A stretch of DNA of 64,000 nucleotides. Origin: Halopiger xanaduensis SH-6 (GTDB lineage: Archaea; Halobacteriota; Halobacteria; Halobacteriales; Natrialbaceae). The stretch lies in NCBI RefSeq assembly GCF_000217715.1, contig NC_015666.1:1934270-1998269 (forward strand), read 5' to 3'. Below the pieces are notes generated by a model. That model was not told the origin of the DNA, searched no databases, and saw only the letters and a list, made by a program, of their open reading frames with translations. Numbering within the stretch: position 1 is the stretch's first letter; each line of letters begins with the position of its first letter. This document shows, in pieces, positions 51,697 through 54,084 of this stretch. Made by a program: the position numbers and the translations under genes.

Positions 51697-51717
51697 CACC
51701 CCTCGTTCAGAGTGAAA
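51697..51717 (+). repeat. Origin recognition box, copy a
   Basis: A 21-bp match to the repeat found in the origin region (complement of core TTCACTCTGAACGAGGGG followed by TG). It lies between the gdhB stop and the orc1/cdc6 stop, 1.4 kb from the other copies. Confidence 0.7.
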
Positions 51718-51884: not shown

Positions 51885-53171
51885 TCAGGAGAACGACGAG
51901 AGATCCACGTCTCGGTTCTGCACCTCGCTGCTGCGATCGACGAGCTGATCGTACGTCGGGAGGTCCTCGAGCGAGGAATCCCGACGGACGGCCTTGACGA
52001 TGTGTTTCGGATCGGTGACGAGCCGGTGCAGCAGGTAGCTGCCCTGCGAGCGGCCGCCGCCGGTCTTCTCGGACTCGATGACCCCGAGGAACGCCTGCTC
52101 CTTGAGCTGGCGGTAGAGCCCGTTCTCGGTGATCGGATCGTTTGCGACCAGTTCGCAGATACCGACGTAGCGCTCGTAGATCTCGCGGGTCTTGTACGTC
52201 TCGCGGTCGCCGGTGATGATCCGGCTCGCGAGCGCGTACAGCGCGAGCTTCGCGTGGACGGTCGCGCCGCTGGTGAGCTCCTCGATCCGGTTGATCTCCG
52301 CGACCTCCTGTGCCTGCTGGATGTGGTCCTCCGAGACGATTTCTGAGCCGGTCCGGCGCGCGAGTTCGCCGGCCTCCTTCAGGATCTCGATCGCCTTGCG
52401 CGCGTCGCCGTGTTTCTTTGCGGCTAGGGCCGCGCAGAGCTCGATCGTCCCGTCCTCGAGGACGTCCGGCTGGAAGGCGTCCTCGCGGTTGCGCATGATC
52501 TCCCGCAGCTGGGAGGCGTCGTAGGGGTGGAAGAACAGTTCGCGGTGGCCGAAGCTGCTGTCGATGCGCTCGTCCAGGGTTTCCCGGTACTGGATCTTGT
52601 TGCTGATGCCGATCACGCCGATGTAGGCGTCGGTCTTCTGGGCCTCGCGGGCCCGCGAGAGTTGCATCAGGATGTTGCTGTTGTCCAGTTTATCGATCTC
52701 GTCCAGAATAACTACGATCGAATCGAAGCACTCGTCGAGGATGCGCCAGATGTGCTGGTAGTACTCCATCGTGCCGACGCCCCGGAGGGGGATGTGCTCC
52801 TGGTAGCCGGTCTCCTCCTTGAGATTGAGGGCTAACTGGCGGGTCGCCCGCGTCTCGGTGTTGGCTTCGGAGCAGTCGACGTAGAGGACGCTGCAGTCGA
52901 TGTCGTTGCGCTGTGCGGCGTCGCGAGCGCGGGTCGCGACGTGGCGGGAGATGAGGCTCTTTCCGGTGCCGGTCTTGCCGTAGATCATCACGTTGTTCGG
53001 CGGATCGCCCCGCGTGATCGCCCCGACCTCGGCCGCGACCGATTGAATCTCGTCGTCGCGACCGACGATCCGGTCCTCGTCGGGGACGTGACCGACGTGG
53101 AGGAGCTCCTTCCGATTGAAGATCGGATCGTGAGATTGAAAGAGCGGATCCCCACCAGCCTGATCGGACAT
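51885..53171 (-). CDS. orc1: Orc1/Cdc6 replication initiator
   Basis: The protein has 428 residues and is an AAA+ ATPase that recognises origin boxes and loads the MCM helicase. Walker A is GKTGTGKS (65-72), Walker B VVILDEID (153-160), and the sensor-1 segment IGVIGISNKIQYRE follows. The C-terminal winged helix (about 320-410) includes TYKTREIYERYVGICELVAN and SYLLHRLVTDPKHIVKAV. Length and motifs are complete. Its TATA box is on the minus strand at 53193-53202 with the ATG about 26 bp on, so it is leaderless. A CGGACA-TGTCCG palindrome (53165-53176) covers the start codon. The gene is transcribed away from the origin, as is usual for haloarchaeal oriC-linked orc genes. Confidence 0.96.
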   Translation of the reverse strand: MSDQAGGDPLFQSHDPIFNRKELLHVGHVPDEDRIVGRDDEIQSVAAEVGAITRGDPPNNVMIYGKTGTGKSLISRHVATRARDAAQRNDIDCSVLYVDCSEANTETRATRQLALNLKEETGYQEHIPLRGVGTMEYYQHIWRILDECFDSIVVILDEIDKLDNSNILMQLSRAREAQKTDAYIGVIGISNKIQYRETLDERIDSSFGHRELFFHPYDASQLREIMRNREDAFQPDVLEDGTIELCAALAAKKHGDARKAIEILKEAGELARRTGSEIVSEDHIQQAQEVAEINRIEELTSGATVHAKLALYALASRIITGDRETYKTREIYERYVGICELVANDPITENGLYRQLKEQAFLGVIESEKTGGGRSQGSYLLHRLVTDPKHIVKAVRRDSSLEDLPTYDQLVDRSSEVQNRDVDLSSFS

Positions 53172-53192
53172 GTCCGCATTCTCGAAGACGTG

Positions 53193-53202
53193 TATTATAA
53201 AA
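53193..53202 (-). promoter_or_regulatory. TATA box of orc1
   Basis: TTTTATAATA on the minus strand is centred about 26 bp before the orc1 ATG at 53171. It lies directly at the origin side of the gene. Confidence 0.65.
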
Positions 53203-53289
53203 CCACGTGAAGGCGTTCAGACTGATAACGTTCAAGTATGGCGACGAATACGCGGTAAATCGCTCGGTCGACGGTTCTCGAGTTCAACG

Positions 53290-53309
53290 CCCCGTGCAGA
53301 CTGAAATCG
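53290..53309 (+). repeat. Degenerate origin recognition box
   Basis: CCCCGTGCAGACTGAAATCG equals copy b (CCCCTCGTTCAGAGTGAAAT and on to CG) with a two-base deletion and two substitutions. It lies about 120 bp upstream of the orc1 start. Confidence 0.4.
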
Positions 53310-53352
53310 CACTCTGCCTGCGGGTTCAGACCGGATTCGTCATACCTACCCA

Positions 53353-53373
53353 CACCCCTCGTTCAGAGTGAAA
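53353..53373 (+). repeat. Origin recognition box, copy b
   Basis: A 21-bp perfect copy with the C4 on the left (G4 on the minus strand), pointing away from the AT-rich element. Confidence 0.8.
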
Positions 53374-53514
53374 TCGGTCGAACGGGTGGGCGGACTCGAG
53401 TAGGTGTGGTGTCGGGGTAGATCACAGGTCCACACCGACGGAAGAGACTCGTCGAACGGACTCGACGATATTCGACTCCTCCTAGAACAGACTTGAAACC
53501 GCCACAACCGCCGT

Positions 53515-53622
53515 TTAGCCATCCGATTTCTCGTCCTCTCTTCTCTTCTCTCTTCACCAACCTAGCTAGTAGTATTGTATCTTACGAATGAAGAAATATT
53601 ATCTTGATCCTATCCGAACTCG
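53515..53622. other. Candidate DNA unwinding element
   Basis: This is the most AT-rich stretch of the region: TAGTATTGTATCTTACGAAT and GAAGAAATATTATCTTGATC, preceded by a 22-nt all-pyrimidine run at 53534-53555. Inverted boxes b and c flank it. It also holds two CTAG sites, rare in this GC-rich DNA. Confidence 0.6.
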
Positions 53623-53689
53623 AGAACGATCGGACCGGTTCGGACGAGATCCCAGCGTAGCCGGCTACCGGCTCCCCCTTCGATCGGCC

Positions 53690-53710
53690 TTTCACTCTGA
53701 ACGAGGGGTG
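53690..53710 (-). repeat. Origin recognition box, copy c
   Basis: A perfect 21-bp copy in the opposite orientation to copy b, with its G4 end facing away from the AT-rich element. Confidence 0.8.
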
Positions 53711-53791
53711 GGGCCCTCCGCAGTCACTAACGGGCCGCCCTCGAGGGACTGAGCCAGTCGTTCCGATACGGTTCGCGTTTCGTCCGGACAC

Positions 53792-53812
53792 CACCCCTCG
53801 TTCAGAGTGAAT
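53792..53812 (+). repeat. Origin recognition box, copy d
   Basis: 20 of 21 bases match copies a and b; only the last differs. Confidence 0.75.
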
Positions 53813-53884
53813 TCCGCCGCGCTATCTCATCCTCCGAATCCGGTGCATCTCCGCCGAATTGCGCCCGATACACCGATTTTCCTG

Positions 53885-53902
53885 TTCACTCTGAACGAGG
53901 GG
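53885..53902 (-). repeat. Origin recognition box, copy e
   Basis: The 18-base core TTCACTCTGAACGAGGGG is intact, but the flanking TTT and TG are altered. Confidence 0.7.
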
Positions 53903-53992
53903 ACTGACTCTATCCACGACGGCCGTCGCTCTCGGGCCCGATCGGTAGACGGTTCGAACGGATTTGCCCCTTACACACTCTCGACGACACCG

Positions 53993-54013
53993 TTTCACTC
54001 TGAACGAGGGGTG
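53993..54013 (-). repeat. Origin recognition box, copy f
   Basis: A perfect 21-bp copy, 71 bp before the ATG of the CitE-like gene. Copies c, d, e and f are spaced by about 90-110 bp. Confidence 0.8.
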
Positions 54014-54084
54014 TCCCTGAGCGAACCGTCCAGCAGCTCGAGGCGAACCCTACTTTCACGGTCGTCGCCCGCGTGTGAGTGGAC

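Follow-up and report, generated by a model that had tools for sequence, protein, structure and literature searches.

The window analysed here is a stretch of 64,000 nucleotides of the Halopiger xanaduensis SH-6 genome (NC_015666.1, here C3, positions 1934270-1998269; the assembly comprises 4 contigs and 4,355,268 bases). It contains an orc1/cdc6 initiator gene, upstream of which lies a gap of 913 bp (53172-54084), where the 18-mer TTCACTCTGAACGAGGGG occurs five times, in both orientations and always exactly. Five copies of an 18-bp element in both orientations, and an orc1/cdc6 gene directed away from them, had been the core of the original prediction, and both are present as described; that list of elements was incomplete, since it overlooked a sixth box downstream of the gene, a promoter box and a mid box. 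The features, in window coordinates, are as follows (ORB, origin recognition box):

51699-51716, minus strand: sixth exact ORB, between the convergent orc and glutamate dehydrogenase genes, outside the region first described
51885-53171, minus strand: orc1/cdc6 initiator gene, 428 aa (TIGR02928), with Walker A GKTGTGKS, Walker B ILDEID and a matched winged helix
53192-53202, minus strand: TTTTATAATAC, TATA box of orc, located about 30 bp upstream of the start codon and conserved as TTTAT/TTTAA
53215-53227, minus strand: promoter box TATCAGTCTGAAC, the box dyad lacking the G-string, located 26 bp ahead of the TATA box and conserved in position; putative operator
53290-53305, minus strand: mid box TTCAGTCTGCACGGGG, degenerate, at the conserved position -134
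53355-53372, minus strand: proximal ORB, exact 18-mer, G-string directed away from the AT-rich core
53519-53557, plus strand: pyrimidine-rich stretch adjoining the AT-rich core, read directly from the sequence
53526-53605, no strand: putative duplex unwinding element (DUE), 65% AT, between inverted boxes
53570-53584, minus strand: TAAGATACAATACTA, a copy of the motif TAAAATATAATACTA with 2 mismatches
53691-53708, plus strand: ORB, exact 18-mer, on the other side of the AT-rich core from the proximal ORB and inverted relative to it
53794-53811, minus strand: ORB of the distal cluster, exact 18-mer
53885-53902, plus strand: ORB of the distal cluster, exact 18-mer
53994-54011, plus strand: ORB of the distal cluster, exact 18-mer, adjoining a citE-like gene

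The initiator matches TIGR02928 with 393 bits (cut-off 181; E=1.2e-117), and its residues 17-403 align to Sulfolobus Cdc6-1 (2qby_A) with E=1.7e-53; at the level of sequence matches, the Orc fold is settled. Two hallmarks of an origin are thus found side by side: an adjacent, intact orc1/cdc6 gene with both AAA+ and winged-helix parts, and repeated, inverted ORBs with a terminal G-string. The box is specific to this place. When up to 3 mismatches were allowed, the window contained 6 matches to TTCACTCTGAACGAGGGG, every one of them exact, compared to 0.03 in window shuffles. In the whole 4.36-Mb genome the six exact copies all belong to the orc1/cdc6 locus, so that the genome-wide search suggested with the original prediction returned no exact copy elsewhere; the remaining matches are five scattered single sites with 2-3 mismatches, and the reversed control gives two. 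The exact TTCACTCTGAACGAGGGG box had no match in a text search of the literature, a result that carries little weight.

The AT-rich and pyrimidine-rich segment that had been placed between inverted boxes is confirmed. The stretch 53526-53605 has 65% AT, compared to a window mean of 33%, and ranks third among the 80-bp stretches of the 64 kb; within the gap upstream of orc, the most AT-rich stretch is the one between the inverted boxes. The motif TAAAATATAATACTA occurs in the AT-rich core of 13/36 orthologous loci at up to 1 mismatch, with no hits in reversed and shuffled controls. It was also considered as a general DUE motif and rejected: once 4 mismatches are allowed, hits in the reversed control are almost equally frequent, and for this reason no generality is claimed. 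The rare tetramer CTAG is found at 53482, 53562 and 53566, i.e., three times in 913 bp; at oriC1 of the same genome (L098, 10049 onward) there are 9 copies within 300 bp, the densest group in about 440 kb examined, and orthologous loci carry 3.3 CTAG per kb upstream vs 0.26 elsewhere. A high CTAG density at origins was proposed earlier (Blow 2016, as cited in PMC5867850). As an origin mark, CTAG clustering was discarded, AT-richer tiles of the own genome reaching 1.0 per kb; the enrichment partly tracks AT content.

A scan of the genome collection identified 35 loci from Natrialbaceae whose orc shares 86-92% identity with that of the window (counts of 36 include the window itself), three Haloferacaceae loci at 73-77% orc identity and another family with about 53%. 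One locus, from Natronorubrum bangense, is counted twice among the 35: the chromosome (NZ_CP031305.1, L046) and an 828-kb plasmid (NZ_CP031306.1, L047) carry the same origin locus of 9,281 bp, identical to the letter, which is either a recent duplication or an assembly fault. Boxes were found in 35/35 orthologous Natrialbaceae loci, and their order and the AT-rich core are also kept. In 33/36 loci the highest AT content falls between the proximal ORB and the closest distal ORB of inverted orientation, and in 34/36 a box is found no further than about 400 bp from the orc stop codon. Two glutamate dehydrogenases, a citE-like gene and an aldehyde dehydrogenase flank most loci; the citE-like match is missing from many Natrinema and Natronococcus loci. 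Individual loci show their own variations: in Natronococcus pandeyae (L042, 2196-2375) an exact box is followed by six degenerate boxes spaced every 27 bp, and in Natrinema gari (L038, 3064-3798) an ORF of 244 codons lies between the distal and proximal boxes, the origin gap being split or enlarged. The predicted origin architecture of inverted boxes, AT-rich core and adjoining orc is conserved over the 36 loci.

Alignment of 17 upstream regions revealed further conserved elements. TTTAT or TTTAA is present at -30/-29 from the orc start codon in 36/36 loci, and TATCAGTCTG is likewise found in 36/36, in 33 of them at -56 and in three at -55. A longer form, TATCAGTCTGAACTACCTTCCATAG, was detected in 29/36 loci when up to 6 mismatches were allowed (0-4 were seen), with 0 in the reversed control; the window copy retains its first 13 bases, and this 13-mer is unique in the genome. 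The mid box, T[TA]CAGTCTG, occurs at -131 to -135 in 30/36 loci (reversed control 0). Both promoter and mid boxes are devoid of the G-string. The other boxes drift in position among loci (the proximal box from -167 to -337), whereas the promoter box keeps its place, which indicates a promoter function; its position at -56/-55, ahead of the TATA box at -30/-29, suggests that the initiator may repress its own gene through this box. By eye, a box near the start codon was also recognized in 2/3 Haloferacaceae relatives and in the sister family; likewise by eye, oriC1 and four other orc loci of the Halopiger genome (L013, L014, L015 and L017) show a box, degenerate or not, no more than about 75 bp from the orc start codon. 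A literature search returned no report of autoregulation of a haloarchaeal orc, which does not imply that none exists. It is an even chance that the locus uses boxes of two grades, the G-tailed ones to start replication and the G-string-less ones at -56 and -134 to shut the initiator's own promoter.

The relation between box and initiator was studied in 61 genomes of the family, sampled evenly, with up to one mismatch allowed in the box. The box is present in 20/20 genomes with the orthologous orc and in 5/41 without it (Fisher 8.5e-12, a value that is too small, since related genomes are not independent). The five orc-negative, box-positive genomes are G014, whose orc belongs to the sister family, G043 and G059, which retain box relics at the same gene junction while orc is absent, and G019 and G046, whose single box copies are likely due to chance. 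In the orc tree, the clade of the window locus, with box TCTGAAC, is supported by 100/100, the sister clade, with TCT(G/T)GAC, by 96/95, and their sister relation by 99/96; the two box types differ mainly in one place, and box type maps on the tree without homoplasy. The genome's other orc genes sit on very long branches, and their placement in this tree is unsure. The specificity residues could not be named, as 62 fixed differences separate the two initiator clades, too many for the purpose. As at other origins, box sequence is thus linked to initiator family, and the original suggestion of an own initiator-box pair gains from the co-occurrence, from the match of tree and box, and from the different boxes of the other orc genes. 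Together, these data strongly support an origin architecture with a family-specific initiator-box pair.

Haloarchaea have many initiator genes, each of which is thought to serve its own origin. The Halopiger genome contains about 10 further orc relatives; at least five of these genes, L013, L014, L015, L016 and L017, show clear repeats, and each has its own, different ones nearby. The boxes of L014 are preceded on the upstream side by a 28-bp repeat (CTAGTTGCGGTTTCACAGC...) in three tandem copies (614-697). The oriC1 of this genome is located on the same chromosome (C3, a 3.67-Mb contig) at about 730.2-730.7 kb, approximately 1.26 Mb from the orc locus at 51885-53171, with box TTCCACCTGAAACGAAGGGG and an Orc of 564 residues. 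An assignment of the window locus itself as oriC1 was rejected, as it has neither a Cdc6A-type initiator nor the canonical ORB; with oriC1 at another place and with another box, the locus is an additional candidate origin.

In its structure, the locus is a further example of a known origin type, conserved among related species. It shares the adjacent orc1/cdc6, the inverted ORBs with the halophile G-string, the AT-rich core and the link of box sequence to initiator family with the haloarchaeal origins of Wu 2012 (PMC3528665), which names oriC1, oriCa and oriCb; a place in oriCa or oriCb would call for an orc at least 80% identical to family members. The general design is that of oriC1-cdc6A, the universal archaeal origin, although gene, box and place are all different; as at oriC1 of Haloarcula hispanica, the G-strings point outward from the core (PMC3936714). 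At oriC2-cdc6E with oriC2D of the same species, the initiator gene is likewise flanked by boxes, of which the downstream ones could titrate the initiator, and a downstream ORB cluster restrains oriC2 (PMC3936714); oriC2D has 11 boxes, unlike the single downstream box of the window locus, which by analogy may act in the same way. The sister orc family (about 53% orc identity) has an almost identical box, also near the orc promoter; it differs in one near-fixed box base and in being mostly plasmid-borne.

The distribution of the locus suggests a history of gains or losses. Between the dehydrogenase gene and the citE-like gene, G057 and G001 have a gap of about 95 and 53 bp, respectively, with neither orc nor box. 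At the same junction, G043 (L123) and G059 (L125) have about 340-370 bp that contain two or three boxes, without orc; G018, the congener in this comparison, has kept it. Moreover, 5/11 orc-bearing genera of the family sample also include a member without orc. The orc-less congeners, together with the box relics in two genomes, indicate that the origin is dispensable. This pattern is best read as an insertion, or as an ancestral presence followed by losses. Of the 106 plasmid records that match the orc, 104 are less than 60% identical, and the closer family accounts for just two; the sister orc family is mainly found on plasmids. An extrachromosomal source of the locus is plausible, in agreement with the model in PMC4441112.

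Taken together, we consider it highly probable that the locus is a chromosomal, orc1/cdc6-adjacent origin of Natrialbaceae, distinct from oriC1, with its own box family and probable self-repression. The Orc1/Cdc6 encoded at 51885-53171 would bind the G-tailed boxes flanking the AT-rich core, their G-strings outward, and would then open the core and load the helicase there, as at characterised archaeal origins. Phylogeny suggests that it would recognise its own box family, to the exclusion of those that belong to the genome's other orc genes. Through the G-string-less boxes at -56 and -134 it would probably act as a repressor of its own gene. The lone box downstream may titrate the initiator or damp initiation.

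As for activity, the proposed check by GC skew showed no switch at the locus, the GC, AT and keto skews showing no difference between its two sides at 50, 100 or 195 kb. At oriC1, the control, the signal was likewise weak (GC p = 0.03 at 100 kb; AT p = 0.006 at 195 kb, both uncorrected); skew being so weak even there, the test is nearly uninformative, and activity is neither supported nor excluded. The Natrinema J7 ARS plasmids were considered as activity evidence and set aside, as the forward primers of ARS-2, ARS-4 and ARS-5 lead to oriC1, L017 and L015, respectively, and none to this locus. In Natrinema J7 pFJ3, for which the result is weak, the 5+1 box count resembles that of the locus. 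The absent skew switch, the several origin candidates on one chromosome and the loss of orc in relatives would also suit a dormant or reserve origin, complete and selected for yet normally silent, with oriC1 or another origin replicating the chromosome. Dormant origins are known in haloarchaea (PMC4595724, PMC3528665), including Haloferax mediterranei (PMC4595724). However, boxes, order and promoter box are strictly conserved over the clade, suggesting regular use, and we regard dormancy as possible, though rather unlikely. It is improbable that the boxes are mainly transcriptional, with Orc regulating its own, the citE-like and the glutamate dehydrogenase genes in place of any origin activity. 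The invariant box beside the TATA box, the distal boxes upstream of the citE-like gene and the precedent of Orc1-2, a non-initiator regulator in archaea (PMC9738581), speak for such a role; regulation, however, would not need an AT-rich core flanked by inverted G-tailed boxes, boxes persist in several loci of Natrinema and Natronococcus without the citE-like match, and the downstream box sits between convergent genes. A non-functional remnant of an integrated plasmid replicon, as the mostly extrachromosomal sister family and the uninterrupted host gene cluster of some relatives might suggest, is very improbable, because orc is intact, the architecture is conserved in 36 loci and the true remnants in G043 and G059 differ in appearance.

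Two sister initiator families are about one box base apart (TGAAC vs [GT]GAC), so that their recognition code is directly testable by swaps. One family contains clusters without origin, with origin and with box relics only, a natural series in which the gain and loss of an origin can be followed. Bacterial DnaA controls its own level; whether archaeal initiators do so too could be tested simply with the fixed promoter box. If the two-grade reading is true, the orc gene would be a built-in level sensor, and feedback circuits of this kind may be general among haloarchaeal origins.
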